Assembly (NCBI GenBank): GCA_002067515.1 | Contig: MVQK01000001.1 | Location: 1-56,349 of the forward strand | DNA: 56,349 nucleotides | Source: Pelotomaculum sp. PtaB.Bin013 | GTDB taxonomy: Bacteria > Bacillota > Desulfotomaculia > Desulfotomaculales > Pelotomaculaceae | Direction: 5' to 3' | Shown: positions 4,208 through 21,665 of the stretch, in pieces | Layout of the letters: each line of letters opens with the position of its first letter | How positions within the stretch are numbered: the first letter of the stretch is position 1 | The notes under the pieces: generated by a model | Database searches by the model: none | Told to the model about the DNA's origin: nothing | The model's input: the letters and a program-made list of their open reading frames with translations, nothing else | Program-made: the position numbers and the translations under genes

Positions 4208-4249
4208 AAGCCGGCGTATTTCTGCCGAATTACTCCCCGAGGTGTTACC

Positions 4250-4390: not shown

Positions 4391-4411
4391 TACCGGTAGA
4401 AACGCTATAAC

Positions 4412-4552: not shown

Positions 4553-4767
4553 TCATGATTTCCCCTTTATATTGTTAATTCTGACACCATGCTCTAAATG
4601 TATGCTGAACGGTAAAGAATAGACCACATTTTATGGCGGCTTCGTGTCCGGCAATAAGCGTGATTGGCTGTCTGTAATGAGCTGGGGGGGGAGTGGGCAC
4701 CAGTGGAAATGTGAGGAAAATAATAAATTATTTATTACGTGAAATAAAAACCCAGGGTATAAGGCAA

Positions 4768-5075
4768 GTGTTCATAAAGACACTTTGTGAACCACCTAAA
4801 ATGCGGGGTATAAGGCGGACAGTTTCGACTGTCCGCCTTTTGCTATGCCTTAAATTGCAGCTGGCAGTTCATCATCAAACAGCATTTCATCATCCATTCC
4901 GTAGAATTCTTCCATAGAGGGAATGTCAAATTCCTCTTTGACATCGTTCAGCATCCCAATGTCACGGTAGAGAATCCAAATATCCTGCGGAGCGGTACGG
5001 GAGTATTTCTCAGCCTTTTCGCCTACCACAACTTTTGCAATAAACATCCGAAGTAGTTCCGGCGTCAGTTCGGTA
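4768..5075. repeat. Direct repeat, left copy (element end plus recombinase 3' end)
   Basis: From GTGTTCATAA through the hairpin and the recombinase C-terminus this stretch matches 14110-14427 at roughly nine of ten positions by eye. The divergence means related but distinct elements rather than a recent duplication. Confidence 0.75.
4814..4841. terminator. Hairpin terminator beside the recombinase gene
   Basis: Perfect stem GGCGGACAGT/ACTGTCCGCC with a TTCG loop and TTTT on the plus-strand side. It separates the recombinase 3' end from flanking DNA and probably works in both directions. Copies recur next to the recombinase remnants near 14165 and 15064. Confidence 0.65.
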
Positions 5076-6550
5076 AGGTCGGTATACTTTTTCGCCTTTT
5101 CAATAAACCTGTCCACGTTGGTAAGGGAGTTCTTGAGGTTATCCATTCTCACTTCAGCCTTTGGCATACGTTCCCGTAGGGCTTTCTGTTCTGCGGTGTA
5201 CTCATCGGACAGGGTTCTATAGTGCTCATCCGGTATACGCCCCAGCACATTGTCCTCATAGAGCCGTTTGAAAAGTGCGGTAAGATCTAAATCCCTTTTT
5301 CGCATAACCTCCAGCTCTTTTTGCAGCGTGGTGATTTCTTTCCTCGTATCAGCCGTGTTTTTGCGGTTGATGCACTCCACAAACAGCGCTTCGTCCTGCC
5401 TTGCAAAGTGGGTCACACGCTTTAAGTCATCCAAAATCACCGTAGCAAGTTGGCTTTCCCGGATGTAATGGGCGGAGCAGGTTTCTTTGCCATACTTCTT
5501 ATAGGTGGAGCAGGCGAAATTGTTTTTGTTCTCGTCCATGGTGTGAGCACGGTGTAGTACCAAAGGCTTTCCACAATCGGCACAGATGACAAGTCCCGAG
5601 TACGGATTGGGATTCTCCATGTTTTTTCTCGGACGCTTTTTGTGCATTCGCACCTCATGGGCAATGTCCCAAATATCCTGAGTAATAATTGCTTCATGGG
5701 TATTTTCAAACCTCAACCATTCAGATTCCGGGCGGATGATTTGCTTTTTGTTTTTGTAAGATGCGGTTGTGTGTTTCAAATTAATTGTGTGCCCGAGATA
5801 GGTTTCGTCGTCTAATATTCTTAAAACAGTGTTTTTTGACCAGTTGCAAATCCTGGTTCTATCTAAATTAGTGAGTGCAATTCCAGTTTGGTTGTAATAT
5901 GAGTTTGAAGGGTTAACAACACCTTCTTCTGTTAACTGCTTTGCAATTTGACTCGGCCCTCTACCATCGGCGCACAGCTTGAAAATATGCTTGACCACTT
6001 CGGCGGCTTCTGGATCGGGAACAATCTTTTTGGGATTGCTCTCGTCTTTTTTGTACCCATAGGGCGACCTTGTTCCAACCCGTTCTCCGCGCTCAGCCTG
6101 TGCTTTCTTCACCGACCGAATCTTTTTACTGCAGTCTTTCGCGTAAAAATCGTTGAATAAGTTCCGGAACGGAGCAAAATCGTTGTCCCCATAGAGCGTG
6201 TCCACCGCATCATTGATCGCAATGAAACGAACATTGTTGTTGGGGAAGGTATGCTCCATGAGAAAGCCTGTTTGCAGATAATCCCTGCCGAGGCGGCTCA
6301 TGTCCTTGACGATCAGGGTTTCCACCTGCCCGTTTTCAATCAGCCCCATAATCTCATTCCACGAAGGACGGTTGAAGTTTGTTCCGCTGAAACCGTCATC
6401 AAACAGAAACCGAATATTGCCAAAGCCCTTTTCCTCAGCGTACCTGGTGAGAATCAACCGCTGATTCTGGATGCTGTTGCTTTCACCCTCCCGGTCATCC
6501 TCTTGGCTCAGTCTGCCGTAGAGTATGGTATATTTTTCGTTGTTTGCCAT
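4850..6550 (-). CDS. Large serine recombinase (TnpX-like)
   Basis: A 566-residue site-specific recombinase. The N-terminal resolvase domain has the catalytic serine in YGRLSQED (about residue 14) and the arginines of KDMSRLGRDY. A recombinase domain follows (PDPEAAEVVKHIFKLCADGRG), then a zinc ribbon (CADCGK, CSTYKKYG, CSAHYI) and a coiled-coil tail near 415-490. Such enzymes excise and integrate elements as circles using short att sites with a dinucleotide core. The start has AGGAGG upstream. The gene sits at the element edge, with a near-identical C-terminus repeated at 14194. It appears intact and is probably the enzyme that moves this element. Confidence 0.92.
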   Translation of the reverse strand: MANNEKYTILYGRLSQEDDREGESNSIQNQRLILTRYAEEKGFGNIRFLFDDGFSGTNFNRPSWNEIMGLIENGQVETLIVKDMSRLGRDYLQTGFLMEHTFPNNNVRFIAINDAVDTLYGDNDFAPFRNLFNDFYAKDCSKKIRSVKKAQAERGERVGTRSPYGYKKDESNPKKIVPDPEAAEVVKHIFKLCADGRGPSQIAKQLTEEGVVNPSNSYYNQTGIALTNLDRTRICNWSKNTVLRILDDETYLGHTINLKHTTASYKNKKQIIRPESEWLRFENTHEAIITQDIWDIAHEVRMHKKRPRKNMENPNPYSGLVICADCGKPLVLHRAHTMDENKNNFACSTYKKYGKETCSAHYIRESQLATVILDDLKRVTHFARQDEALFVECINRKNTADTRKEITTLQKELEVMRKRDLDLTALFKRLYEDNVLGRIPDEHYRTLSDEYTAEQKALRERMPKAEVRMDNLKNSLTNVDRFIEKAKKYTDLTELTPELLRMFIAKVVVGEKAEKYSRTAPQDIWILYRDIGMLNDVKEEFDIPSMEEFYGMDDEMLFDDELPAAI

Positions 6551-6633
6551 CGTTTAAAATCCTCCTTCTTGTTGTGGCAAACTGAATACGGTAACCCAAG
6601 CATACCGTAACAGGTTCCACAAGTCTACTGAAA

Positions 6634-6927
6634 TCAAGCGTTTTGGGGCGCTTTTTCCAAGTCACTTTCAATTACCGAGAGCATTTTTTTTGTGGGGGTA
6701 GAAACACTTTTTAAGGGGAACACGGAATGCACCCGGAACACCCTGTCCTCCACTACCATATCCCGTTCAATGGTGTGGGAGGCTTCATCTGTGTAAACAA
6801 AGGTGTCTGCAAAGGTACGGTGAGAGGTGCCCTCGCTGTCGCTTTGCCAAATGATTTCGGCGGTTTCGTAAGCGCCGAGGATATTGGTTTTCAGATAATG
6901 CTGTGCCGCTAATTTCTCGTTTGTCAT
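6634..6927 (-). CDS. Conserved mobilizable-element protein of unknown function
   Basis: 97 residues, starting behind AAAGGAGATG. It lies 12 bases downstream of the relaxase stop and 83 bases upstream of the recombinase start, so it is probably cotranscribed with the mobilization genes. The sequence is soluble and mixed alpha/beta (AQHYLKTNILGAYETAEIIW, then TFVYTDEASHTIERDMVV). It has no motif I recognise. Position between relaxase and recombinase suggests a role in element transfer or excision control, which is only inference. Confidence 0.6.
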   Translation of the reverse strand: MTNEKLAAQHYLKTNILGAYETAEIIWQSDSEGTSHRTFADTFVYTDEASHTIERDMVVEDRVFRVHSVFPLKSVSTPTKKMLSVIESDLEKAPQNA

Positions 6928-6939
6928 ATCGCATCTCCT

Positions 6940-8322
6940 TTACATCTTCATTTCAAAATCGTGTCCGCTGTGGTCATCTTCCTTTTGACCGACCGCTAAT
7001 TTCTTCTTCCTGCTGGTGTGCTGCGGTGGTTTCGTGGAGGCATCCTTTAGGGGAACAGGGTTGTCCAGCCTTTCCAAAGCGCGCCCCAGCTGAACCACAC
7101 TGCCGCCAATGCCAGCAAGATCAAGGGAATTACTATCCACAGCGGTGTCCATGTCAGGTGCGGCAGCCGCAGCTTCGGCAAAGAAAAATGCTTCTCTTTC
7201 TGTTTCCCAGCCTGTGACAACGTCTGCTGTATCTGCAGCAGGCTCTTTCTGATTTGCTCCAGCTCCGACCCCGCAGGTAGATTGTTCAGCTGTGTTTTGA
7301 GGCTGCGGTTCTGCTGCTGGAGAACTTTTACCTGCTCCTGCAGCTGGGTTATCCCATCCCAAATCAGCCCTTGATTGTAGAATAGATTGTCCAGCTTCTC
7401 CTGTGTTAGAGGACAAGACGGGCGGTTCTGTAATGGCTGCTGGGGAATCGGTTCGGCTGTCTGCGAGCCTGCGTTCCGCTGCTTCAATTCTTCTAAGCTC
7501 AAATTCACGTTCCATCATCTCCTTTAAATAGCGATTGTCATGGAGCTTGATATCCCGGCAGGACATGGTGTTTGGGCAGGTATAGGTGATGTATTTTCTG
7601 CTGCTTTCCCACCGAATTGAGTAGCCTTGTCGCTCCATATTTTTAATGAAATCTGCTTTTGTGCCGCTGGTCTTCATAGCAAAATCAATTGCGTTCATCA
7701 ATGAAAACTTCCAACTATGTCCCTTGGCAGCGGCACGGTATTCCCGGGATGCAAGACTTTGGGACTTGCCGCCAGTATAAGGCTTGAGGGTAGTCAGCCC
7801 ATATTGCTGACAAATTTGGTCTGAATACGCCCGAAGCTTTAGTAGTGTTTTGGGACCTTGGTGCAATTTCTTTCCGGTTTTAAAGCTGACTGAATTGATA
7901 ATAAAGTGAGAATGCAGATGCTCGTTGTCCACATGAGTGGCGATGACCACTTCATAATCGGGGTAATTATCCTCGGCGAATTTCATGGCAATCTCATGTG
8001 CAGTTTTGGGTGATATGGTTTCACCATCCTTAAAGGCTTGATCGTAATGATAAAACATCGTTTGGTCAGCCTTTTTAAAGCTGTTTTTGGTTGCCATGAA
8101 TTCTTGAAAAGCTGTTTCGGGACAGCAGTCTTTGCCGGAAATTAAGCGGATACATCCGGTCTTATCCGCATCCTCGGAATAGCTTTGGTAGTTGACGGTG
8201 TGGTCACAATTGAATTTCTCCGGCTCGATGCACACCTTGAAATCCTGCAAAATATATTCGATTTCATTTCGCATGGAGAAGGCATTTTGCTTTTTACAGG
8301 GGATGAAGTTGACCGTTGCCAT
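6940..8322 (-). CDS. MOBP-type relaxase (MobA/VirD2-like)
   Basis: A 460-residue DNA relaxase that would nick oriT and pilot the strand in transfer. The metal-binding histidines are clear in HVDNEHLHSHFIIN (about 130-143). The surrounding relaxase domain spans about 40-260. From about 270 on the protein is low-complexity and Ala/Gly/Pro-rich, and it ends in a basic, His-containing tail. The start at 8322 overlaps the mobC stop (TAATG) and implies translational coupling; an upstream ATG at 8340 lies inside mobC. A second gene is encoded in another frame within the 3' part (7047-7508), which may explain the odd composition of the tail. Confidence 0.85.
   Translation of the reverse strand: MATVNFIPCKKQNAFSMRNEIEYILQDFKVCIEPEKFNCDHTVNYQSYSEDADKTGCIRLISGKDCCPETAFQEFMATKNSFKKADQTMFYHYDQAFKDGETISPKTAHEIAMKFAEDNYPDYEVVIATHVDNEHLHSHFIINSVSFKTGKKLHQGPKTLLKLRAYSDQICQQYGLTTLKPYTGGKSQSLASREYRAAAKGHSWKFSLMNAIDFAMKTSGTKADFIKNMERQGYSIRWESSRKYITYTCPNTMSCRDIKLHDNRYLKEMMEREFELRRIEAAERRLADSRTDSPAAITEPPVLSSNTGEAGQSILQSRADLGWDNPAAGAGKSSPAAEPQPQNTAEQSTCGVGAGANQKEPAADTADVVTGWETEREAFFFAEAAAAAPDMDTAVDSNSLDLAGIGGSVVQLGRALERLDNPVPLKDASTKPPQHTSRKKKLAVGQKEDDHSGHDFEMKM
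7047..7508 (-). CDS. Out-of-frame nested gene in the relaxase: coiled-coil plus membrane-anchor protein (MobB-like)
   Basis: 153 residues entirely inside the relaxase 3' region, in another frame of the same strand. It starts at GTG (7508) with AAAGGAG ten bases upstream. The protein has an early helical region, a long Gln/Leu heptad-like stretch (about 55-105, for example LQEQVKVLQQQNRSLKTQL), a basic patch, and one convincing transmembrane helix (LWIVIPLILLALAAVWFSW, about 124-142). This regular architecture is unlikely in a chance antiphase frame. ColE1-family plasmids likewise nest mobB, which has a membrane segment, within mobA. I infer a membrane-tethering relaxosome accessory. No sequence homology to MobB is claimed. 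Confidence 0.6.
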   Translation of the reverse strand: MNLSLEELKQRNAGSQTAEPIPQQPLQNRPSCPLTQEKLDNLFYNQGLIWDGITQLQEQVKVLQQQNRSLKTQLNNLPAGSELEQIRKSLLQIQQTLSQAGKQKEKHFSLPKLRLPHLTWTPLWIVIPLILLALAAVWFSWGALWKGWTTLFP

Positions 8323-8627
8323 TATCGGTTCACCTCGCAAAGTACAGACAGTTTTTCATAGATACCACTTAGCTTCGCCTTGGTTTCTGCAAGGTAAACG
8401 GCATCCACCTTGCCCATGTTAGCAAGGGTTGTAAGCTGATTGAGGTTTCTGCCGATGGCCTTTAGCTCACTGATAAGCTCCTGCATCCCATCTACCACAA
8501 CGATTTCTTTATCGGTTATGGCTCGCTCTAAAAATTCCGTCATGGTAACCTTGCCGCGCCTGGCTTTTTGTTTCAGGGTTTTGTAGGTGCTTTCGCTGAT
8601 GCGAAAGGCAAAGGGTTTCTTTTTCAT
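8322..8627 (-). CDS. mobC: MobC-family relaxosome accessory protein
   Basis: 101 residues. The N-terminal half (FRISESTYKTLKQKARRGKVTMTEFLERAI) is a ribbon-helix-helix DNA-binding fold. The C-terminal half has the MobC signature AIGRNLNQLTTLANMGK. MobC proteins bind oriT and help the relaxase open DNA at nic. The start follows AAAGGAGAACC. The stop overlaps the relaxase start, so the pair is coupled. The likely oriT lies just upstream at 8640-8850. Confidence 0.85.
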   Translation of the reverse strand: MKKKPFAFRISESTYKTLKQKARRGKVTMTEFLERAITDKEIVVVDGMQELISELKAIGRNLNQLTTLANMGKVDAVYLAETKAKLSGIYEKLSVLCEVNR

Positions 8628-8639
8628 TGGCGGTTCTCC

Positions 8640-8850
8640 TTTCGATTTTCATTGCGCCAACGGCGCTCTATCAAGTGGGGTCCGGGGCGTCTGCCCCGAG
8701 CGAGCTGTGGCGGGCGTATAGCCCGACGCTCTGCTCGCCTCACCCAAGGGGTGAGAAAGCGTAACCGAAACCTTGGCGGTTTAACTGAAATAGGTGCGAT
8801 TCTGCATTTGTCCGCAACAGTGGCTCAATTTGCGGGTTTGAGGTGATTAG
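8640..8850. other. Candidate oriT / mobilization control region
   Basis: No gene is found in this stretch between mobC and repA. It holds clustered inverted repeats: GGGGC/GCCCC at 8685-8698, CGGGC/GCCCG at 8710-8724, and CACCC/GGGTG at 8742-8755. Its position directly upstream of mobC-relaxase is where oriT lies in related elements. The nic site cannot be set from sequence alone. Confidence 0.4.
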
Positions 8851-8856
8851 GTGTAT

Positions 8857-9957
8857 CTATGCCACCCCGCCGTCAACCTCGGCACACAGGGGCGGACAGC
8901 GGGCAACGGTGGCGGGATTGCAGCCCTGTGACAGTGCTGACGGCAAAGACGGTGAATTTCGGGGGCTTGATTCTGCCGTCATATCGTCATTGCCGTCATA
9001 GCAGAGAGAAAACTCCCTGCGCTCAAAGGTGCGGTTTTCGGAATAATGAATACCGTGCTTGTTAAGATGCGCCATGTGTTTGATGATTTTCTTTTTCAAA
9101 ACTGCTGGTCGCAATTCCAATTTCAAAGCCTTGGCAAGCTCCGTTGCAGTCCCAGTGAAGCAGCCAACCGATTTTATAAAATCAAAGAGAAGAATAATTT
9201 CCTCAGGGATAATCAGCTGCTTCATTTCAATCGGTTCCAACAGCTCCCATAAAAATTTGTTCTTGTTGAACTCCAAGAACAGTTCCCGTCCCTCGATATC
9301 CCTACCGGTGCAGATGAGCGTTGCGGTATTTTCAGTTCGCTTGTTTTTTTGCAGTACAAAGTTTGTATCAGCACCACCAGCAATACCGCTGGTGCCTGAA
9401 ATCATATTGAGCGGATCGGCATCACCTGTTTTACGGAGATGATGTACCAGCACAATGGCAATGTGATATTTGTCGGCAATTTGTTTTAGAGCATTGATAT
9501 CATCGTAGTCGGCTGCATAAGGATTCACATTTGCTGAAACGGTTTTGCGGACCTTTTGCAGGGTGTCAATCACAATCAGTCCTGTGCCGGGGTGCTCTTT
9601 GATAAAGCTTTCAATTTGGTTTTCCAGACCATGGCCGATAGCATCGCTCATAATGGCAAAGTGAAGTGTCGCCGGTGCTTCATCGGTAATTTTAAACAGT
9701 CTGCTTTGGATGCGGGAGAAGCTGTCCTCCAGACAGAGATAGAGCACATCGCACTTTCGGGTTTCAAAGCCCCACACCGGTTCGCCCTTTGCCGCCTGCA
9801 AGCAGACCCACAGTGCAAGCCAGCTCTTGCCGATTTTTGGTGAGCCTGCCAGCACATGCAGTCCTTCGGGTAGCAGATCGCTGACAATGAATTTCAGCGG
9901 TTCCATGGGTGTGGTCATCAAGGTTTCCGCATCCAGGGTTTTTAACTTTTTTGACAT
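8857..9957 (-). CDS. RepA-like AAA/RecA-fold ATPase
   Basis: 366 residues. Walker A is GSPKIGKS (38-45) and Walker B is LIVIDTLQ, followed by a HHLRKTG sensor-like loop. This is the pattern of RSF1010 RepA-type hexameric helicases and related mobile-element ATPases. The C-terminal 130 residues contain a winged-helix-like section (FTGTATELAKALKLELRPAV) and a low-complexity tail. The start follows GAGGAGGAATCAC. In this element it could support replication of the excised circle or strand transfer; that is inferred from family and context. Confidence 0.8.
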   Translation of the reverse strand: MSKKLKTLDAETLMTTPMEPLKFIVSDLLPEGLHVLAGSPKIGKSWLALWVCLQAAKGEPVWGFETRKCDVLYLCLEDSFSRIQSRLFKITDEAPATLHFAIMSDAIGHGLENQIESFIKEHPGTGLIVIDTLQKVRKTVSANVNPYAADYDDINALKQIADKYHIAIVLVHHLRKTGDADPLNMISGTSGIAGGADTNFVLQKNKRTENTATLICTGRDIEGRELFLEFNKNKFLWELLEPIEMKQLIIPEEIILLFDFIKSVGCFTGTATELAKALKLELRPAVLKKKIIKHMAHLNKHGIHYSENRTFERREFSLCYDGNDDMTAESSPRNSPSLPSALSQGCNPATVARCPPLCAEVDGGVA

Positions 9958-10125
9958 TTGTGATTCCTCCTCTTAATTCAATTTGCTTTGAAAAGCGCAA
10001 TAAATCGAATGTTGAAAACTTCTATTCCTTGTGATACCATTGTCCTATATTCAGAAACAGAAATACACAGCGAATCGCAGCAATGCCGTTTTGCGGAAAA
10101 TCGATTATTTGCGAGAGGAGTGCCT

Positions 10126-11214
10126 ATGGAACAATATCCATTCATCAAAGTTTTTGAGGGAAGTGACAAGCTGATTTACTCCATGGCTTATGCCTATCCG
10201 GACAAAGTGACGCAGTATGCGCAAAAGTTTATTGGCAATGGACTGATTGAATTTGTGGAAATGGATTTCGAGGAATACACAACACTGCTAACTGAAACGA
10301 AATCCATTCCGCTCGCTATGGAAAACTATCAGACAATCAGGAACAAAATATTTGATGTTGCAGAAACCATCGCGGACAAGCACCGCTATGTTTATTTCTT
10401 TTTAGTGGGCTTACTGAACAACATTTTGAAAGAACCCATTCACACTAAAGATGAATTTGAGGCCGCTTTGCTCAAACCCCTTGCAATTTGTATAGAGGAA
10501 TTGGAGCACATTTTAGAGCTGCAGGAGGTATGCACGAAAGCGGTCACCACTTGCTTAGATAGAGAAAGCCACTCGGACAAGGAAATGTCCCAGCGGCTTT
10601 GTGAGTTTGTATCGGAGTACCCCGGCTTTGCCGAGGCTGCTGTGAAAATAAAATACGAGCTGCTGCCGAAGAAAAATGGCAAGGTGGATATGGATACGCT
10701 TAAGGATATCCATGATTGGAATCTACGGGAAACAGATGAGCTTTTAGAAATCATGCACCAGGATGGCGAGGGTGTCAGTTTGATGCCATACTATCTGTTT
10801 GAATATTTGGATGAGCTGCTCTATTTTGAGTTTTCCGAGATGCTGAAAAACGCACAGTTCGTTAAGCGTTGCAAATTGTGCAGCCGCTATTTTGTGTTGA
10901 CCGATAAGCGTAAGCGGGATTTCTGCGACCGGCCTTATAAAGGCAATCGCACCTGCAAACAGGTTGGAGCAAAGCTGTTTTATGATCAGGGCATGCAGGG
11001 AAACGACTATTTGCTGGCTTTCCTGACCGAGTACAACAAGGTGTACTCTCGCCGTTACCGTGCGGACGGTAAATCGCCGGAAGAGTTTAGCGGCAAGGAC
11101 ATGTCCTCGGAGAAATATGCCCAGTGGGCAAAGCTGGCGCGTCAGGCTCGGAGCGATTATCTTGACGGGAAAATTACGGGAGAAGAAATGCTGGCGAAAA
11201 TCAAGGTGGATTAA
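10126..11214 (+). CDS. DUF6076-like mobile-element protein with zinc finger
   Basis: 362 residues, transcribed opposite to repA. The frame is open upstream to 9988, but GAGAGGAG six bases before the ATG at 10126 fixes the start. Residues 1-270 are helical and unrecognised. Near the C-terminus RCKLCSRYF is followed by DFCDRP and RTCKQVGAK, a four-Cys zinc-binding site resembling CGNR-like fingers. Proteins of this design are frequent in clostridial mobilizable elements (DUF6076 by memory). It may bind nucleic acid. Function is unknown. Confidence 0.65.
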   Translation: MEQYPFIKVFEGSDKLIYSMAYAYPDKVTQYAQKFIGNGLIEFVEMDFEEYTTLLTETKSIPLAMENYQTIRNKIFDVAETIADKHRYVYFFLVGLLNNILKEPIHTKDEFEAALLKPLAICIEELEHILELQEVCTKAVTTCLDRESHSDKEMSQRLCEFVSEYPGFAEAAVKIKYELLPKKNGKVDMDTLKDIHDWNLRETDELLEIMHQDGEGVSLMPYYLFEYLDELLYFEFSEMLKNAQFVKRCKLCSRYFVLTDKRKRDFCDRPYKGNRTCKQVGAKLFYDQGMQGNDYLLAFLTEYNKVYSRRYRADGKSPEEFSGKDMSSEKYAQWAKLARQARSDYLDGKITGEEMLAKIKVD

Positions 11215-11248
11215 ACGGGGTGCGTGTTTCGCAATTCTCCATGCAAAA

Positions 11249-11284
11249 CAACAAAGGCTGCTCCCGTTGGAACAGCCTTTGTTG
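11249..11284. terminator. Strong hairpin between convergent genes
   Basis: A perfect 12-bp stem CAACAAAGGCTG/CAGCCTTTGTTG has a 12-base loop. It sits between the ends of two converging genes (11214 and 11315). The T-rich flank favours the minus-strand transcript, though it probably acts on both. Confidence 0.6.
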
Positions 11285-11314
11285 CGGGATAGGATATAAC
11301 ACTTGCTTTCGGTT

Positions 11315-11830
11315 CTAATCCATACGTCCTACCATTTTATTGATGTCACCATCACCGTCCACGAAAATTGTAACATTGGGCTTATCGTTATCTTCAATCC
11401 AACCAAAGCCGAGAAAGTAGACCTGCTTTTGACCGTCTATTATTCGGGTGTCGCCCATCTTTGGCTCCCACGCCGTTACCGCCCTCGTGTTTTCTAAAGG
11501 TGTAGGTATGGGGATAGGGTTATCCTTTGGAGCAATGTTTATTAATATCTCCGTCGTGTCAGCTGGGTTTGGCGGCTCAAAATCGGTTTCTGTGTGGGTG
11601 TTGTCCTGCAGTGGGTTTTGGGTGCTGATTTCGGCGTTTTCTTCGCTCACAAGGGCTTTAATCTCTGCTGGTGAAGTCTTATCCCTATCGAGCCATAAGG
11701 ATGCAGAAACGGGGCTTGTGGCGGGAACTGGCGGCTCTTGCGGAGATTGATTGCACAAGGGAACAATCAGCAGAGAAATAATTGCTAATGCTGACACTGC
11801 CGTAATAAATTTAGCTTTCTTTTTCATCAT
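11315..11830 (-). CDS. Exported mobile-element protein, DUF6550-like
   Basis: About 171 residues when started at the ATGATG behind AAAGGAGAAG at 11830. A signal peptide or anchor (FITAVSALAIISLLIVPLC) leads into a Pro/Thr/Glu-rich linker and a compact C-terminal domain (WEPKMGDTRIIDGQKQVYF, then GFGWIEDNDKPN). The domain resembles DUF6550 of clostridial integrative elements by memory. The gene overlaps the end of its upstream neighbour by 20 bases, so translation is coupled. It is probably tethered outside the membrane. Role unknown. Confidence 0.55.
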   Translation of the reverse strand: MMKKKAKFITAVSALAIISLLIVPLCNQSPQEPPVPATSPVSASLWLDRDKTSPAEIKALVSEENAEISTQNPLQDNTHTETDFEPPNPADTTEILINIAPKDNPIPIPTPLENTRAVTAWEPKMGDTRIIDGQKQVYFLGFGWIEDNDKPNVTIFVDGDGDINKMVGRMD

Positions 11831-12134
11831 CGGCTTCTCCTTTCGGCATAAAAAATTGACCACAGTCATTGAAAACCTCCTCAAGACTGTGGTCATAGTT
11901 TTTCAGTTCCGTTGTAAGTTCCATTCCAAGCCCGAAGCCTTGGATGAAGCTTGCCTTACTTTGATAGTTACAAATCATTCCCAAGGCATCAATGATTCGC
12001 AGTACTGTTTTCCTATCTTCCTTTGACAGCCGGTCAATCAAAATTTTGTGGTTTTCCTCCACGGACAACTTAAGCTCATTAAAATCCTGTTGCTTAAAAA
12101 AGCTGTGGTATAGGTCGTCTAATCGCTTTGGCAT
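11811..12134 (-). CDS. Small soluble mobile-element protein, DUF6809-like
   Basis: 107 residues from an ATG preceded by AAGGAGGGAGAGA; the longer open frame upstream overlaps the restriction gene and has no ribosome site. It is all-helical, with a closing motif (SFIQGFGLGMELTTELKNY) like that of DUF6809 proteins, which are frequent cargo in clostridial elements. The upstream restriction remnant ends 60 bases before, on the same strand. No catalytic motif is visible. Function is unknown. Confidence 0.55.
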   Translation of the reverse strand: MPKRLDDLYHSFFKQQDFNELKLSVEENHKILIDRLSKEDRKTVLRIIDALGMICNYQSKASFIQGFGLGMELTTELKNYDHSLEEVFNDCGQFFMPKGEADDEKES

Positions 12135-12193
12135 ATTCTCTCCCTCCTTTAGCAACACAAGATACCATAAAAGAGAAAGAATAGCTATATGTT

Positions 12194-14110
12194 TTATATA
12201 TTTAACTTGAAATCTTTCCACGCCTTGGCTACTCTAAGTTCGGTGCCGTTTTCTAAAGCTTTAAAGTGTTGCTCGCCGCAATGGATTTTCAGTTGCTCGG
12301 TGGTACGCAAATTCCATGTATCTGCCACACCCTTGGTTTCCATGACAAAGTACAGCTTTTCGCTTCCATCCTTATCCATATATACCGCCCAGTCAGGATT
12401 ATAAGTTCCGATGGGTGTTTCAATTTTAAATCGGGACGGAATCTTGAAAAACATCTTTACATCAGGGTCGTTATCCAGCGCCACGGCAAAGGGCTTTTCT
12501 ATGGTGGAGCTGTCGTAAACAACATAATCGTATACGCTGTTTTTCACCGCTACTGCATCCTTATCAAGATTTGCAATAATTTCCGTTGCATCAAAAATCT
12601 CCATGGCATAATACTCCTGGCCATCCAGCTTGACATACTTAATGCCATCTATAGCAAGCTCGTGGCGATTTCTACGGATGATTTCCAATCCTTTCTCCAG
12701 AAACGCCTGCGGGTTGTGGAGAAAGTCGGCAGATCTGCCGCTTTCCATTAGGATACGGCGCACAGTGGCCCGTTTAATCAGTGTTTATTCGCTGATGATA
12801 TTGATGATGTGCGGCAGTGCTTCGTAGGTGGTTTCCAGATCGGTTACCTTGATGCCGCGCTCAAAGTGGGTAACGCCCGCATTTTCAATATTGATATCCG
12901 CCGTTTGTGTCATCAAACGCGCTTTGGGGATACGCGGCATTGTCTGCAAATCCCGAACGCTCCAGTCCACCAGCTTTTCGGTATCAATCTGCACACGGTA
13001 AGCTGTTTTTTGCTTAATCCTATCCCACAACTCGCGAAATTCCGGTGAAATCAGCACCTGTTTATTGAGCCGCACCGTTACCTCACGAGAGGCATCACGC
13101 AAAGGCGGACGCTGGTCAGCTCGAGTAATGATATTTTCAAAACGGCTGCGGGCTGCTTCAAACTTTTTAGGCAAGTCCAAAGTGCCGCTGAGCAGGGCGC
13201 TTTTCATGGTATCCTTTATTTTTCCGGTTTTCGTGATATAGTCTTTTTTTTCAAAGTGATTCATGAGCTGGGTGGCTTCCTCATAGCTCACCGTTTTTTC
13301 TACCGTGATAGTTTCAGTATAAGCTTGTCCGACAATATCGTCAGCCTTGACCGTTGCGCCTGTCTGAATTGCCAGTGCAAGGCTTTCCTTGGCTGTTTCC
13401 ATCTGCGGCGGAAGTGGGGCAGTCTGTTCCACAATTGCTGCCTTAGCTGATTCGGTTGGTGTGCCATCTTTGGTCAGATAGCCGTGAGTGACCATATAAT
13501 CCACTACGAGCTTTGCATCCTGTGCATCCACTGTCTTTTCCTGCACGATTTTTTCCTCGTAGGTCATGCCTTGGAATAGGCTAAGCTGTAAAATGCCAAA
13601 CTTTACGCCAGTCTCCGATTCGATTTCACGCTGCAAGGTTTCCGCAAACTCCGAAAAGCTCTCGTTCGCCATCACGTGCAGGACATTGATATTTTTATCT
13701 TCAATTCGCTCACCGTCTTGATTGACACAAAGGTGCAGACCTCGACCAACCTTTTGACGGCAGGTGAAGGTGGATTTTTGTTCAATCAGCGTACATACCT
13801 GAAAAACATTGGGGTTATCCCATCCCTCTTTCAATGCGGAATGCGACCAAATAAAACGAAGCGGGCAGTCAAAGCTGAGCAGCCACTCCTTATCCTTCAT
13901 GATGGTGTTATAGGTATCGTAATCGGCTATGGTATCGCCCTTGGTATCCTTGAAAGAACCTTTCTTGTCCTGCGAAAAATAGCCGTTATGGACAGCCTGC
14001 ACATCTGCGGGAAACTGCTTTTTCAGCTCTGCATATTTGGGCAGGTTCAAAAGCTCCTGATAGGTCTGCTCAAACATCTGCGTATAGATCCCTTTTTCGC
14101 CGTTAGGTGG
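12194..14110 (-). pseudogene. res: Type III restriction endonuclease Res subunit, 5'-truncated and interrupted
   Basis: The C-terminal two thirds of a type III Res subunit. The helicase part contains LRFIWSHSALKEGWDNPNVF and RQKVGRGLHLCVNQDG (motifs V and VI). The distal part carries the endonuclease signature PDWAVYMDKDG followed by ETKG, the PD-(D/E)xK core. A TAA at 12782-12784 separates residue ISE from TLIKRATVRRIL in the same frame, so a single nonsense change splits the gene. The 5' third with the Walker motifs is gone: coding sequence runs into the second element end near 14110. No Mod subunit is present. The product cannot cleave DNA as encoded. Confidence 0.8.
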
Positions 14111-14427
14111 GTGTTCATAAGGATACTTTGTGAACCACCTAAAAATTTGGGGTATAAGGCGGACAGTTTTGACTGTCCGCCTTTTGCTATGCCTTAAATT
14201 GCAGCTGGCAGATCATCATCAAACAGTATTTCATTATCCGTTCCGTAGAACTCTTCTATAGAAGGAATATCAAATTCCTCTTTGACATCGTTCAGCATCC
14301 CAATGTCACGATAATGAATCCAAATATCTTGCGGAGCGGTACGGGAGTATTTCTCAGTCTTTTCACTTACCACAACTTTTGCAATGAACATTCGAAGCAG
14401 CTCCGGTGTCAGCTCGGTTACCGCTGT
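14110..14427. repeat. Direct repeat, right copy (second element end)
   Basis: Counterpart of 4768-5075, including the hairpin GGCGGACAGT/ACTGTCCGCC near 14159-14182 and the recombinase C-terminus. Its outer edge is fused to the truncated res gene, which suggests that a second element had inserted into res. Confidence 0.7.
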
Positions 14428-14440
14428 GGCGTTTTCAATA
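14194..14440 (-). pseudogene. Serine recombinase C-terminal remnant, copy 2
   Basis: Seventy-four residues from TELTPELLRMFIAKVVVSEK to the end match the C-terminus of the recombinase at 4850 with eight differences. The frame continues briefly upstream (IENATAV) and then becomes unrelated, so the catalytic and DNA-binding domains are deleted. It shows a second, related element once ended here. Confidence 0.85.
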
Positions 14441-14614
14441 AGGGCTGTGTTCGGAAGTTGCACTTTGGGTCTGCTTGTCTCGCACAAAGCTGATACGGAG
14501 GCAGGAGGGTATTATTGATAATGATTTTGTGAAAAATTTATGCTCGCGGGGTATAACCAAATGATAAATTTTCAGATCGCAAGAATTAATCTGTTTTTTA
14601 TAAATTAGAATTTC

Positions 14615-14663
14615 TTGACGTTTCTTTTATACAATGATATACTTTTCATACCCCTATAGGTAT
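14615..14663 (+). promoter_or_regulatory. csoR promoter with overlapping CsoR-type operator
   Basis: TTGACG (14615-14620), a 17-base spacer and TATACT (14638-14643) form a good sigma-A promoter. ATACCCCTATAGGTAT (14648-14663) lies at the expected start of transcription and has the ATACC/GGTAT arms with a C/G tract typical of CsoR-family operators. Its reverse complement matches the feo operator at 14 of 16 positions. Autoregulation of csoR is the natural reading. Confidence 0.75.
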
Positions 14664-14693
14664 ATTGGGATATGCAGAAAGGAGTGTGACAAT

Positions 14694-14969
14694 ATGCGCC
14701 AGTGTATGGATGCGGATAATCTGCATAGAAGAATAAACAAAATAATGGGACAAATTAAGGCAATTGATAAAATGGTTGATGAGGATATCCCCTGTGAAGA
14801 TGTTTTAATCCAAATAAATGCGGCAAAAAGCGCTTTGCAAAAGGTTGGTCAGGTTGTTTTGGAGGGGCATTTAAATCATTGCGTCCGGGAAGGGATCGAA
14901 CACGGCGACGCCGACAAAACGATAGCAGACTTTTCTAAAGCAGTTGAACATTTTTCAAGAATGACATAG
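14694..14969 (+). CDS. csoR: CsoR/FrmR-family metal-sensing repressor
   Basis: 91 residues starting at ATGCGCCAG behind AAAGGAGTG. The all-helical CsoR fold is clear: LHRRINKIMGQIKAIDKMV, then CEDVLIQINAAKSALQKVG, then EGHLNHCV. The metal triad Cys34-His59-Cys63 reproduces the spacing of the copper sensor CsoR (Cys-x24-His-x3-Cys); the nickel/cobalt sensor RcnR has His at the last site. That points to Cu(I) or a thiol-type cue, yet operators like its own sit on the feo and P-type ATPase promoters. An inverted repeat and a terminator follow. It is flanked by recombinase remnants, so it probably arrived on a mobile element. Confidence 0.85.
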   Translation: MRQCMDADNLHRRINKIMGQIKAIDKMVDEDIPCEDVLIQINAAKSALQKVGQVVLEGHLNHCVREGIEHGDADKTIADFSKAVEHFSRMT

Positions 14970-15018
14970 TTCCAGGGAAAAAATAACAAACACAGAAAAG
15001 ACAGGCTTTAGGCGGGAC

Positions 15019-15058
15019 ATCATAGGGACAAAATGTGAACTGGATATATCCCTATGAT
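15019..15058. repeat. Perfect 10-bp inverted repeat
   Basis: ATCATAGGGA and its inverse TCCCTATGAT are separated by 20 bases, between csoR and the third recombinase remnant. It could be a transcript hairpin or an element-end feature. Nothing further supports either. Confidence 0.5.
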
Positions 15059-15063
15059 AGGGG

Positions 15064-15092
15064 CGGACAGCTTCGGCTGTCCCCATTTTTTT
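15064..15092 (+). terminator. Terminator after csoR
   Basis: Stem GGACAG/CTGTCC extended by flanking G-C pairs, loop CTTCGG, then ATTTTTTT. It ends the csoR transcript and resembles the hairpins beside the other two recombinase ends. Confidence 0.75.
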
Positions 15093-15094
15093 GC

Positions 15095-15290
15095 CTATAC
15101 AGGCTGAACGGCATCTTGGATATCTCCAAAACCGTACTCTTCAGATAGGGCTTCCTACGTCTTCTCTTGCTCCATCGATGTACCCATTGGCCTGCGCGGT
15201 AGTAAATCCAGATATCCTGATCGACGGTACAAGAATATTTCTGTGTTTTTACCCATCACAATTTTTTTCGGTATCTGATATTGACGGTAT
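15095..15290 (-). pseudogene. Serine recombinase C-terminal remnant, copy 3
   Basis: Read with frameshifts, the minus strand gives IPKKIVMGKNT, then QKYSCTVDQDIWIYYRAGQW, then EALSEEYGFGDIQDAVQPV and a stop. This follows the order of the intact recombinase tail (VVVGEKAEKYSRTAPQDIWI, RDIG, EEFDIPSMEEF). It is more diverged than copy 2 and clearly dead. Together with the hairpin beside it, this marks a third, older element end. Confidence 0.7.
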
Positions 15291-15386
15291 ACAGAATAAT
15301 GATATTCAAACGTCCAATTCCCGCAGAAGCACCATTAGTGGCTTCCGTTAATAGCGATATGGAATAAGCCCTCGCACTTGGAATGA

Positions 15387-15420
15387 GAAAAAGGCAATCG
15401 AAATTCGATTGCCTTTTCTT
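15387..15420 (+). terminator. Hairpin upstream of the feo promoter
   Basis: AAAAGGCAATCGAA pairs with TTCGATTGCCTTTT almost without a loop, followed by CTT. It insulates the feo promoter, which begins two bases later. Confidence 0.6.
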
Positions 15421-15421
15421 G

Positions 15422-15487
15422 TTGACAAAACCATACCTAAGGGGGTATACTCATATTGAGTTATGCCCATACCCCCATACCCATATG
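15422..15487 (+). promoter_or_regulatory. feo operon promoter with two CsoR-type operators
   Basis: TTGACA (15422-15427) and TATACT (15446-15451) are 18 bases apart. ATACCTAAGGGGGTAT (15433-15448) fills the spacer and overlaps the -10, so a bound repressor would block polymerase. A second C-tract site (CATACCCCCATACCC, 15468-15482) lies just downstream. The first site matches the csoR operator at 14 of 16 positions. Confidence 0.7.
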
Positions 15488-15552
15488 TTTTGGGCTTTGG
15501 TGTATATGCGATTCAGAAACTAATAAACAAGTTCCTTATACTGAAATGGGGG

Positions 15553-15771
15553 ATGTATTTGATACCGCTTGCAATAGCTCCCATAGGCGAGAAACACAAA
15601 ATACAGGCTATATACGGGAGCGAAAATGTACGTTCGCATTTGGAAAGTCTTGGCTTTACTTGTGATAGCGAAATAGGTGTTGTTTCTAAAACCTACGGAA
15701 ATCTAATTGTTATGGTTAAAGGTTCACGTGTAGCGTTAAGCGAGGATTTAGCAAAAAAAATTATGGTGTAA
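15553..15771 (+). CDS. Divergent FeoA-domain (SH3-like) protein 1
   Basis: About 72 residues with the FeoA plan: a PIGEKHKIQAIYG turn, SHLESLGFTCDSEIGVVSKT in place of RRLLDMGLTPGTEV, and a final VKGSRVALSEDLAKKI strand-helix. The start is uncertain. ATG at 15553 lies just three bases after GGGGG, whereas TTG at 15559 has ideal spacing and would align with the start of the next gene. It is first gene of the feo operon. It is probably a small cytoplasmic partner of FeoB, by family analogy. Confidence 0.65.
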   Translation: MYLIPLAIAPIGEKHKIQAIYGSENVRSHLESLGFTCDSEIGVVSKTYGNLIVMVKGSRVALSEDLAKKIMV

Positions 15772-15857
15772 TGTGTCAGGAGATAGAAAGAATGTTTTGC
15801 ATCAGCACAACTTAGCTATCCATACACTTATTCCATTGTGGAAAGGGGGATAGGTCG

Positions 15858-16109
15858 GTGACACTATCAACGGTCCCCTTTGGGGAAGAATATGTTATAA
15901 AGGGTATGTGGTGCAATGATTATGAACGTACACTATTGGAAACTGTTGGGCTGACTTGTGATAGTGTGGTCTATATCGTAACGAAGACATTTGGCTGTTT
16001 TCTCGTTGGGATAAACGGCACCTGTGTAGCATTAGACGAGGAATTGGCAAGAAGAATTATGGTGGAAATAAAGGAGGATTTGATATGGCGACACTACGAG
16101 ACACAGTAA
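15858..16109 (+). CDS. Divergent FeoA-domain protein 2
   Basis: 83 residues from GTG behind AAAGGGGGATAGG. It is a paralogue of the preceding protein (PFGEEYVIKGMWCND, then LLETVGLTCDSVVYIVTKTF, then INGTCVALDEELARRIMV). Both share the phrase GxTCDS, which the canonical FeoA downstream lacks. It has an extra Cys in the first loop. The 3' end overlaps the canonical feoA by 25 bases, so the two are translationally linked. Having three FeoA-like genes in tandem is unusual. Confidence 0.65.
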   Translation: MTLSTVPFGEEYVIKGMWCNDYERTLLETVGLTCDSVVYIVTKTFGCFLVGINGTCVALDEELARRIMVEIKEDLIWRHYETQ

Positions 16110-16306
16110 TTGGTAAAACGGTTAAAGTCAAAAAAATCCATGGCGAGGGTGCGGTAATACGCAGGATTATGGACATGGGCATTACCAAAGGCGCAGAGGT
16201 ATTTGTACGAAAGGTTGCTCCTCTTGGTGACCCTATCGAGGTACGGGTACGGGGTTATGAATTGTCATTGAGGAAATATGACGCTGAAATGATTGAAGTG
16301 GAGTAA
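16085..16306 (+). CDS. feoA: Ferrous iron transport protein A
   Basis: 73 residues, canonical FeoA: GKTVKVKKIHGEGAVIRRIM, DMGITKGAEVFVRKVAPLGD, then PIEVRVRGYELSLRKYDAE. The start has AAGGAGGATTTG upstream. FeoA is a cytoplasmic SH3-like protein that supports FeoB. It overlaps the upstream paralogue and is followed 62 bases later by feoB. Confidence 0.9.
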   Translation: MATLRDTVIGKTVKVKKIHGEGAVIRRIMDMGITKGAEVFVRKVAPLGDPIEVRVRGYELSLRKYDAEMIEVE

Positions 16307-16368
16307 TCCTTTTTTTTAGCCAGCGAGTTAGTCTATTATAACTTAACTTTTATAAAGGAGGGTGTTTT

Positions 16369-18555
16369 ATGCAAATTACAATAGCACTTGCCGGTAATCC
16401 AAACTCCGGCAAAACGACATTGTTTAACGCTATGACTGGTTCTACCCAGCGTGTTGGCAACTGGCCGGGCGTTACAGTTGACAAAAAAGAGGGCAGATTA
16501 AAGAAATTCAACAAAGACGCCACTTTGATTGATTTACCAGGTATTTACTCCTTATCACCTTATACGGTTGAGGAAGTGGTAAGCCGTGACTATTTGGTGA
16601 ATGAAAAACCGGATGTAATTATCAATATCGTAGACGCTGCGAATATTGAAAGAAACTTATATCTGACGACGCAGCTCTTAGATATTGGTATCCCTGTTGT
16701 CATTGCTCTGAATATGATGGACGTAGTGCAGAAAAGCGGAGATAAAATCAATTCAAAAGCCCTTTCCAAGGACCTCGGCTGCCCTGTTGTTGAAATCAGT
16801 GCATTAAAGGGAACGGGCATTAAGGAGCTGGCTGATACAGCAACTTCGGTTGCTCAATCGAAAAACCACGCCGCATTTGACCGCAAGTTTTCCTCGCCTG
16901 TTGAGGAAACGCTGGCAAAAATTGAAAGCCTTATTAAATGCAAGGTGTCGGACGACAATCTGCGGTGGTATAGTATAAAATTCTTTGAGCGCGATAAGAA
17001 AGTGCTGGAGCAAAACAAACTGCCGGGTAATATCAATAGCCAAATTGAACAGGCAATAAAAGCGTGTGAAGAAAAGCTTGACGATATAAGTTTGTCGATC
17101 ATTACCGGCGAAAGCTACGATTATATCGCTCAAATGATAAAAGATTCCGTTGTGAAGTCCGGCAGACAAACGACACCGTCCGATAGGATTGACGCCATTG
17201 TAACAAATCGTTGGATGGGCTTGCCTATATTTGTGCTTGTAATGTTTGTGGTTTACTATGTTTCGGTAACCTCTGTCGGAACACTTGTAACCGACTTTAC
17301 GAATGATATGGTCGTTGGCGAGTGGATACAAACCCCTCTTGGCGACTGGCTGACTTCCATCGGAACCGCCGACTGGCTGACAGGATTGATTGTTGATGGT
17401 ATTGTGGGCGGCGTTGGCGCGGTTTTGGGCTTTATGCCGCAAATGCTAATTCTGTTCTTCTTCCTTGCCATACTGGAGGATTGCGGCTACATGGCGCGTG
17501 TCGCGTTCCTGATGGACAGGGTTTTCCGCAAGTTCGGATTATCCGGCAAGAGCTTCATTCCCCTGCTTATTGGTACAGGCTGTGGCGTGCCCGGTATTAT
17601 GGCGGCACGTACCATTGAGCAGCAGCGTGACCGCAGAATGACAATTATTACAACTACATTCATGCCTTGCGGGGCTAAATTGCCCATCATAGCGTTAATT
17701 GCCGGTGCGCTGTTTGGCGGCGCATGGTGGGTTGCACCCTCGGCATATTTTGTCGGTATCGGCTCGGTTGTCATATCAGGTATTATGCTTAAAAAGACAA
17801 AACCTTTCATGGGTGACCCCGCGCCTTTTGTTATGGAGCTTCCCTCCTACCATTTCCCTGTGCCGGGGAATATTGGCCGCAGCATGTTAGAGCGCGTAAT
17901 CGCCTTTGCTAAAAAGGCCGTTACGGTTTACATGCTGGCAAGTATTTTGGTGTGGTTCACTTCCAGCTTTGGAGTTATAAACGGCACGTTTGGCATGGTA
18001 GATGATATGAACGACAGCGTTCTACATACTATTGGGACAAGTTTCATGTGGATTTTCAATCCGCTGGGCTTTGGCCGTTGGGAGGCTGCCGTTGCTACGA
18101 TCATGGGTCTTGCAGCGAAAGAAGAAATCGTCGGTGTGTTTGGTGTGCTGACTTCAATCGGCGACGCTGACCTTGCCTTTGAAATGGTGGACACAGCTAA
18201 TACGACCGGTCTTGCACCTATTGCGGCGTTATTCAACAGTGGACTGGCCGCCTATTCGTTCCTTGTGTTCAATTTGCTTTGTGCGCCTTGCTTTGCCGCC
18301 ATCAATACGATCCGGCAGGAAATGAACAATTGGAAATGGTCAGTATTTGCTGTTGCGTATCAATGCGGATTTGCATATTTAATATCTTTGTTGATTTACC
18401 AGTTTGGTATGCTATTCAGCGGAGGCGGAATTACAGCAGGTTCAATAGCCGCATTTATTATATTAGCAGCGTTTCTTGTTATGTTGTTTCGTCCTGTACC
18501 CGCACCCCACAAAAAACAGATTACAACCAATCAAAAAGTATCATCGTCAGTATAA
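16369..18555 (+). CDS. feoB: Ferrous iron transporter FeoB
   Basis: 728 residues. The N-terminal G domain shows GNPNSGKTT (9-17), DLPGIYSL, NMMD (115-118) and SALKG. A linker follows, and from about 285 the polytopic membrane part has the two gate motifs with conserved Cys (CGAKLPIIAL near 440 and LLCAPCFAA near 640). FeoB imports Fe(II) under anoxic conditions. It is preceded by AAGGAGGGTG and followed by a Cys-rich partner gene 14 bases on. Transcription is expected from the CsoR-type promoter at 15422. The length is normal for the Firmicutes type and no key residue is missing. Confidence 0.95.
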   Translation: MQITIALAGNPNSGKTTLFNAMTGSTQRVGNWPGVTVDKKEGRLKKFNKDATLIDLPGIYSLSPYTVEEVVSRDYLVNEKPDVIINIVDAANIERNLYLTTQLLDIGIPVVIALNMMDVVQKSGDKINSKALSKDLGCPVVEISALKGTGIKELADTATSVAQSKNHAAFDRKFSSPVEETLAKIESLIKCKVSDDNLRWYSIKFFERDKKVLEQNKLPGNINSQIEQAIKACEEKLDDISLSIITGESYDYIAQMIKDSVVKSGRQTTPSDRIDAIVTNRWMGLPIFVLVMFVVYYVSVTSVGTLVTDFTNDMVVGEWIQTPLGDWLTSIGTADWLTGLIVDGIVGGVGAVLGFMPQMLILFFFLAILEDCGYMARVAFLMDRVFRKFGLSGKSFIPLLIGTGCGVPGIMAARTIEQQRDRRMTIITTTFMPCGAKLPIIALIAGALFGGAWWVAPSAYFVGIGSVVISGIMLKKTKPFMGDPAPFVMELPSYHFPVPGNIGRSMLERVIAFAKKAVTVYMLASILVWFTSSFGVINGTFGMVDDMNDSVLHTIGTSFMWIFNPLGFGRWEAAVATIMGLAAKEEIVGVFGVLTSIGDADLAFEMVDTANTTGLAPIAALFNSGLAAYSFLVFNLLCAPCFAAINTIRQEMNNWKWSVFAVAYQCGFAYLISLLIYQFGMLFSGGGITAGSIAAFIILAAFLVMLFRPVPAPHKKQITTNQKVSSSV

Positions 18556-18569
18556 AGGGGTGACTGTTT

Positions 18570-18752
18570 ATGGAGTGGCTGGCTAACAATGCTTCTACAC
18601 TTATTATTGGCACGTTGCTTTTAGTGGCAGTAATATTTGCAATACGTTACTTGTGGAAAAAGGCAAAAGCCGGGCAATGTGTCGGTTGTTCAGAATGCGA
18701 CGGCCATCACGGAACAAGCGGCTGCCATTGTTCCACTAACAAAGAACAGTAA
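18570..18752 (+). CDS. FeoB-associated Cys-rich membrane protein
   Basis: 60 residues: one N-terminal transmembrane helix (TLIIGTLLLVAVIFAIRYLW), a basic turn, and a Cys/His-rich tail with CVGCSECDGHH and GCHC. It matches the FeoB-associated Cys-rich (P12-like) family found after feoB in Firmicutes, thought to take the place of FeoC. The tail could bind iron at the membrane. A strong terminator follows 9 bases later, so this is the last gene of the operon. Confidence 0.85.
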   Translation: MEWLANNASTLIIGTLLLVAVIFAIRYLWKKAKAGQCVGCSECDGHHGTSGCHCSTNKEQ

Positions 18753-18761
18753 GCATATAAA

Positions 18762-18806
18762 AACAGGGGTGCGACAGCAGGTACAGGCCGTCGCGCCCCT
18801 GTTTTT
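18762..18806 (+). terminator. feo operon terminator
   Basis: AACAGGGGTGCGAC pairs with GTCGCGCCCCTGTT around a 13-base loop, followed by TTTTT. It cleanly separates feo from the ATPase unit. Confidence 0.85.
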
Positions 18807-18844
18807 AGTAAGTACATAAGGTATCTTATTTGCTCTTATAAGTA

Positions 18845-18895
18845 TTGACATGGCATACGTATGCGAGTATTATATACCTATACCCCCATATGTAT
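18845..18895 (+). promoter_or_regulatory. P-type ATPase promoter with palindrome and CsoR-type site
   Basis: TTGACA (18845-18850), exactly 17 bases, then TATTAT (18868-18873). The spacer contains the perfect 12-bp palindrome GCATACGTATGC (18853-18864). Just downstream of the -10, ATACCTATACCCCCATAT (18874-18891) resembles the CsoR-type sites upstream of csoR and feo. Two different control elements therefore seem stacked on one promoter. Confidence 0.7.
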
Positions 18896-18912
18896 TAGAG
18901 AGGATGATGTAA

Positions 18913-20775: not shown

Positions 20776-20957
20776 AATCAATAATTTTTACAACCGCCGG
20801 CCTGCTCGTCGGAATCGCATTGATCGCAGGGGGCAGATATTATCTGCTGAAAGAAAAGGACGATAAAGATTCCGCTAAAATATACGGGACATTTGTAGGC
20901 ATCGGTGCCCTGATAGTAATAGGCATGGTTATTAAGATTATCGTGGCAGGTTTTTAA
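20772..20957 (+). CDS. Small two-helix membrane protein coupled to the ATPase
   Basis: 61 residues: a transmembrane helix (IIFTTAGLLVGIALIAGG), a charged middle (YYLLKEKDDKDSAK), and a second helix (FVGIGALIVIGMVIKIIVAG). Its ATG overlaps the ATPase stop (ATGA), and GGAGCATG precedes it, so the two are made together. I do not recognise a family. The coupling suggests an accessory subunit or stability factor for the pump. Confidence 0.65.
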   Translation: MKSIIFTTAGLLVGIALIAGGRYYLLKEKDDKDSAKIYGTFVGIGALIVIGMVIKIIVAGF

Positions 20958-21090
20958 TCGTTCCTTAATTCTGTGCCCTCTTTCCCTGTCAAATAAGCGC
21001 GCTGCTAACGGTACTCGCCAGTATTGTTTCCTGAGTTTAGACCTAAATGAAGTAATGAACCGAGGCGATGTAATAAGAGGTGTAAAACAA

Positions 21091-21501
21091 ATGGAAAAGT
21101 TATCTGCTGCAATGGAAAACTACTTGAAGACAATCTACTCCATATGCCGATTTAATACAATGACGCATGTGAGTGAAATTGCTGCGAAAATGAATCTAAG
21201 CAAAGCAAGCGTCTGTCGTGCAACAGATATTTTATCAGATAAGGGATTGAGCCGCAAAGATAAATATCGTGATTTATCTTTTACGGCCGAAGGGTTATAT
21301 CAAGCCGAGCTTATATCCAATAAGTACGATATCATTCAAACTTTTCTGAATGAAGTTTTGGATGTTGACCCATCTGTTGCAGAGAAGGATGCGTGCAGCT
21401 TTGAACACAGTATCAGTTTGAAAAGCTTGCAGTCGATGAAACATTGTATAAAAAACAATAAAATGGATGAAACCGTAAGGAAGAAAAGTGAGCAATTTTG
21501 A
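21091..21501 (+). CDS. DtxR-family iron-type metalloregulator
   Basis: 136 residues from the ATG behind AAGAGGTGT; the open frame extends upstream to 21055 but that start lacks a site. The N-terminal winged helix is typical (MENYLKTIYSI, SEIAAKMNLSKASVCRATDI). The dimer domain holds Cys102, Glu105 and His106 (ACSFEHSIS), the Cys-xx-Glu-His set of iron-responsive DtxR rather than the Glu-xx-Glu-His of MntR. The ancillary-site His is replaced by Tyr79 (NKYDIIQ). No SH3 domain follows. It ends the metal island and may control the ATPase or feo genes; the palindrome in the ATPase promoter is a candidate target. Confidence 0.8.
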   Translation: MEKLSAAMENYLKTIYSICRFNTMTHVSEIAAKMNLSKASVCRATDILSDKGLSRKDKYRDLSFTAEGLYQAELISNKYDIIQTFLNEVLDVDPSVAEKDACSFEHSISLKSLQSMKHCIKNNKMDETVRKKSEQF

Positions 21502-21556
21502 GTAAATACTTAATTTAGACAGATTATGGCTGGTTTTATATACAGCACGGAGTACG

Positions 21557-21589
21557 ACGGGTACGGTTATAAAAATCGTACCCGTTATT
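21557..21589 (+). terminator. Terminator of the DtxR-type gene
   Basis: Perfect stem ACGGGTACG/CGTACCCGT with an 11-base loop and a TATTTG tail, about 55 bases after the regulator stop. Confidence 0.7.
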
Positions 21590-21665
21590 TGCTTCCACTT
21601 AAACTATTATCCAGATAAATCAAAAGCGAGCTGTTCCGGAATAAAAAGCACCAATGCAATATTTA

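Follow-up and report, generated by a model that had tools for sequence, protein, structure and literature searches.

A putative MobB-like membrane protein encoded out of frame within the relaxase gene of an integrated mobilizable element from Pelotomaculum

MobB proteins encoded out of frame and overlapping a relaxase gene are already known from the IncQ1 plasmid RSF1010/R1162 and, among Gram-positive hosts, from the staphylococcal plasmid pC221, in both cases with the same +1 offset as in the locus described here. The overlap of mobB with mobA is documented (PMC5572225), and, according to titles cited in PMC3297438 and PMC6098607, R1162 MobB stabilizes the relaxosome and the transport signals of the relaxase require RSF1010/R1162 MobB. 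The layout of pC221, whose mobB was read across the start of the sequence record, was also found in plasmids of Staphylococcus xylosus, Staphylococcus epidermidis, and Enterococcus faecium. In two of the small mobilizable E. faecium plasmids, the relaxase-overlapping single-TM ORF (L071, 3147-3623; L073, 2416-2892) is annotated as hypothetical or not at all, and the L071 copy, the one searched, had no Pfam match. In ColE1, the genes for MbeB and MbeD are nested in that of the MOBP-type relaxase MbeA.

The locus considered here lies in the window, that is, the whole stretch of 56,349 nucleotides that was analyzed, where a second ORF was found entirely within a MOBP-type relaxase gene (Table 1). 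A sequence-only reading had proposed this nested gene, and the list of ORFs agrees with it in strand, frame, coordinates, product length, and GTG start; the ribosome-binding site that it named is likewise present before the start codon. Like RSF1010 MobB, the predicted product is small, encoded fully inside the relaxase gene (mobA/repB in RSF1010) in the +1 frame (base 1 of each nested codon is base 2 of a relaxase codon), and ends in one C-terminal TM region, which follows a helical region as judged from hydropathy, sequence, and a weak structure model. However, the RSF1010 relaxase is of the MOBQ type and its host is Gram-negative. With pC221 MobB, the nested gene shares a MOBP relaxase, a Gram-positive setting, a +1 start in the 3' third of the relaxase gene, and a charged or helical middle followed by a TM segment, whereas the pC221 gene overlaps its relaxase gene by about 275 nt before running beyond the stop of the latter, has more than one C-terminal hydrophobic stretch, and belongs with a relaxase of a separate clade. 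The E. faecium ORFs are closer in having a single C-terminal TM and about 150 aa after a +1 start inside a MOBP relaxase, but their overlap is just 236 nt, and their relaxase groups with the staphylococcal clade.

Table 1. Coordinates of features in the window
Feature	Position	Strand	Basis and remarks
Integrated element	4763..21778		17.0 kb, probably composite; conspecific genome joins 4762 to 21779
Large serine recombinase (integrase)	4850..6550	minus	PF00239, PF07508, PF13408, PF14287
Small conserved gene between relaxase and recombinase	6634..6927	minus	ORF list, relatives
MOBP-type relaxase (host gene)	6940..8340	minus	466 aa from first TTG; PF03432, 3.9e-34
Relaxase C-terminal tail past the nested stop (...GQKEDDHSGHDFEMKM)	6940..7046	minus	Conserved in relatives
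Nested gene (MobB-like)	7047..7508	minus	153 aa, GTG start, +1 frame relative to relaxase; ORF call, openness in relatives, selection, structure model
Nested TM helix, approximate coding region	7065..7144	minus	Residues about 122-148; relaxase frame there is a QLGRALERL-like segment
Shine-Dalgarno AAAGGAG	7519..7525	minus	10 nt 5' of GTG; same bases are the relaxase K-E codons of KEMMEREF
MobC/NikA-like relaxosome accessory protein	8322..8627	minus	PF21983, 1.6e-14; PF05713, 3.6e-8

This resemblance in layout was not accompanied by a resemblance in sequence. The nested protein has no detectable relation to RSF1010 MobB (BLASTP E=1.2), with no NCBIfam match near cut-off, and it did not match PF03904 (DUF334), the family that recovered pC221 MobB as a positive control (1.4e-64). 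Comparison with staphylococcal MobB by hhalign gave a probability of 3%, so direct homology to that protein is unsupported. More generally, searches of Pfam and NCBIfam returned no match at family cut-off, and no Pfam hit with E up to 0.1 belonged to the MbeB or MbeD families; weak Pfam and PHROG matches (ZapB, DotU, YscO, and others) fell far under the cut-offs, were typical of coiled coils, and were set aside. Since the sequence tests against both RSF1010 and staphylococcal MobB were negative, the nested protein may be called MobB-like by layout, and membership of either MobB family is not supported. The ColE1-like arrangement had been proposed as new to Gram-positive elements; the MobB-like layout stands, but its novelty was overstated, as pC221 and other staphylococcal and enterococcal plasmids have a +1 mobB-like overlap, and RSF1010 and pC221 MobB, with their C-terminal TM, appear to be the better functional analogues. 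The gene described here is fully nested, and its product has no detectable sequence relation to either of these proteins. A literature search for a nested gene in such elements found no paper, most subscription papers lying beyond its reach.

The nested product has a short helix at its N terminus, followed by a helical or coiled-coil middle rich in Gln and Leu, then a basic stretch (KQKEKHFSLPKLRLPH), and finally a hydrophobic helix at its C terminus. This last helix, predicted from the outset to span the membrane, is borne out by hydropathy, with a Kyte-Doolittle maximum of 2.32 over 19 residues near residue 123. An AlphaFold2 model places helices at residues 5-13, 36-75, 80-102, and 123-151, which are weakly supported given the low confidence of the model (mean pLDDT, 61; pTM, 0.23). 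The long coiled coil that had been suggested for the middle of the protein is thus backed by these low-confidence helices and by a hydrophobic periodicity that was matched by only 6 of 2,000 shuffles, and a coiled coil in this region is a reasonable prediction.

The N-terminal half of the host relaxase contains an HUH-type nuclease domain (PF03432). The overlap itself had been described as low-complexity in the relaxase frame, which holds for most of it, a low-complexity linker, but not for two conserved segments: a QLGrxLErL-like segment over the nested TM helix and a TGWExERexFF motif. The latter lies over AGKxxEKxFS in the nested frame, where one glycine is invariant, and its retention in the relaxase indicates that the overlap is not just filler. 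The relaxase tail beyond the nested stop is a possible T4SS signal. In one related locus (L004), the relaxase frame is broken within the overlap by a TAG (codon 355, numbering from the upstream stop) and the nested frame is intact; we set this aside as a sign that the tail is dispensable, because L004 is a single metagenome assembly and the near-identical L007 is open at that position.

An open frame in a low-complexity linker could be a non-coding accident of codon usage. When synonymous codons of the relaxase were resampled and the nested frame was scored for openness and for openness with a TM segment, the frame at the window locus was open in 3.3% of resamplings (P=0.03), and open with a TM segment at P=0.003; at other loci, the corresponding values were 0.4 to 48% and, more rarely, 0.03 to 1.9%. 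Openness by chance is therefore not very improbable (0.004 to 0.48 in single sequences across loci), and a single sequence is suggestive of a gene rather than proof of one. The question is settled by conservation and by a phase shift of substitutions in relatives, for which variable sites were counted by relaxase codon position within four groups of related loci. In the window's group, pairwise difference rates at relaxase positions 1, 2, and 3 were 0.05, 0.04, and 0.22 upstream (5') of the overlap, 0.19, 0.13, and 0.10 within it, and again 0.05, 0.06, and 0.16 downstream (3') of the nested stop. The fastest position is thus relaxase position 3 outside the overlap and relaxase position 1, which is nested position 3, inside it. 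This shift between positions 1 and 3 was found across all four groups, with Fisher p-values from 1e-3 to 3e-14 (0.001, 1e-5, and 5e-9 in groups B, C, and D) that are indicative, since sites on a tree are not independent; in group B it was mild (0.123 versus 0.116).

Rates of nonsynonymous and synonymous change in both frames, a comparison that had been suggested as a check, point the same way. In our own counting scheme, in which changes were classed by their effect in both frames without correction for multiple hits, the N/S ratio of the nested frame (given relaxase-nonsynonymous change) was 0.33, 0.44, 0.52, and 0.25 in the four groups, while that of the relaxase frame in the overlap (given nested-nonsynonymous change) was 0.73, 0.53, 1.09, and 1.15. 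Purifying selection acts on the nested frame, and more strongly than on the relaxase frame in the overlap, with sub-regions that differ in constraint; in the TM part of group B, there is little in either frame. Stop codons in the second frame of close relatives, which would have spoken against a gene, were looked for, and none were found. Together with the conserved Shine-Dalgarno sequence, start, and TM segment, the phase shift and selection contradict a codon-usage accident, which we regard as extremely improbable, and from comparative sequence data the nested ORF is almost certainly a genuine protein-coding gene.

Relatives were collected by scanning genome contigs with the relaxase as the query, which gave 23 loci. 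In those covering the region, including loci whose relaxases are just 35 to 43% identical, the nested frame is uninterrupted and its C-terminal segment is hydrophobic; L022 and L024 have only partial or diverged copies, and L008 is masked at its start. AAGGAG occurs at the same 10-nt spacing to the nested start in 18 of 19 aligned loci, although its bases double as relaxase Lys-Glu codons, so that this conservation is not independent of the relaxase. A GTG, ATG, or TTG start is found at the same position in every aligned locus except L083, which has no Shine-Dalgarno sequence of the AAGGAG form and a TTG start two codons further on. The nested stop lies about 100 to 220 nt 5' of the relaxase stop in every measured locus. 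These features also bear on whether the second frame might be entered by ribosomal frameshifting, since two overlapping frames could yield a relaxase with a membrane-anchored tail, which would serve the same purpose. However, (i) most loci have an in-frame stop merely 2 to 5 codons 5' of the nested start, (ii) a good Shine-Dalgarno sequence precedes that start at fixed spacing, and (iii) the relaxase frame retains its own constraint 3' of the nested stop, which together make frameshifting highly unlikely.

In a tree of 54 relaxase sequences, all 24 sampled carriers of the nested gene fall in one clade of 27 (support 100/98), and more distant Tn1549/PcfG-like relaxases that were sampled do not have it. 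This distribution fits one origin and one or two losses, although a tree is no proof of this. Related relaxases without the second frame, anticipated as evidence against the gene, do exist (L039, L040, and L055); they are a minority in the clade and are compatible with loss, and they indicate that the nested gene is not indispensable to all such relaxases. L055 (G000:C7:8126-11851), a locus of the window's own genome, encodes a 43% identical relaxase that is shorter and is missing the overlap region and with it the TGWExER motif, but that retains a similar tail at its C terminus and is followed by the same small gene. Among 398 genomes from the phylum, a clear match (E below 1e-49) was found in four, including the window's genome, and 392 genomes of another order gave three further clear matches (L082-L084) besides one already found. 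The nested gene is therefore uncommon but widely scattered. The nearest relatives are mostly in Oscillospiraceae-type genomes, a pattern suggestive of transfer between lineages. With the nested protein alone as the query, no relatives were found in nearby genomes and plasmids or in phages, and a relaxase search of viral contigs gave no match.

The proposal that the gene resides in a chromosomal element is confirmed by a conspecific genome in which window positions 5-4762 and 21779-23281 are adjacent at 99.98 to 100% identity, representing the empty site (attB, GGGTATAAACC). A chimeric contig was suspected, as window positions 4763-20000 are nearly unmatched in that genome; this was rejected once the same genome proved to have 4762 and 21779 directly joined, at about 100% identity. 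The ends of the element are similar and inverted. A second copy of the left end, in the same orientation and with a recombinase 3' remnant, lies at 14103-14418; the element is therefore probably composite, suggesting that two elements accreted in tandem. Genes run in the order MobC, relaxase with the nested gene, and serine recombinase; an AAA protein is also encoded, and metal-related cargo (a metal-sensitive repressor [PF02583], FeoB, a P-type ATPase, and an iron-dependent repressor) occupies 14634-21501. No T4SS domain was recognized in Pfam matches of the larger ORFs, and with its integrase, relaxase, MobC, and defined site, the element thus qualifies as an integrative mobilizable element. 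Elsewhere in the window, the first ~130 bases (1-131) recur widely in the conspecific genome, often at contig ends, like a repeat or insertion sequence.

By analogy with the described MobB proteins, we consider it probable (roughly 0.7) that the nested ORF encodes a functional mobilization accessory protein of the MobB type, which would anchor the relaxosome at the membrane near a helper channel. The protein would be translated from its own ribosome-binding site within the relaxase mRNA and therefore be made together with the relaxase, and its single C-terminal helix would anchor it in the membrane. Basic residues before this helix suggest that the N-terminal part stays in the cytoplasm, where the helical region would probably oligomerize and bind the relaxase/MobC relaxosome. 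Because the recognizable genes of the element include none for a secretion channel, we propose that the relaxosome is probably held close to the coupling protein of a conjugative element residing in the same cell. Alternatively, a real nested gene could serve in exclusion (entry or surface) or in some other role at the membrane: the protein has no sequence link to a studied MobB, and small relaxase-overlapping proteins can have exclusion roles, as does ColE1 MbeD. However, every intact case recovered is embedded in a relaxase, in an element without a recognized T4SS, and the long cytoplasmic helical part would be more in keeping with a docking protein than with a small exclusion protein. We therefore consider such roles unlikely, and a MobB-like role the likely one.

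More tentatively, proteins of this kind may form a family, so far without a name, that docks relaxosomes through a membrane anchor and whose genes sit entirely within the relaxase genes of an old clade of mobilizable elements of the Bacillota. On this view, +1 TM-ended overlaps (IncQ, staphylococcal/enterococcal, and the window's clade) would have arisen more than once, and the dual-frame motif (relaxase TGWExER over nested AGKxxEK) would lock the relaxase tail to the anchor. The locus is a clear case of an overlapping pair whose inner frame is the more constrained. Little is understood about how, in Gram-positive bacteria, mobilizable elements that lack a channel dock on the secretion system of a helper. 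A conserved membrane anchor whose coding frame lies within the relaxase gene, where gene callers easily overlook it, is a concrete docking candidate that can be probed by mutations synonymous in the relaxase.
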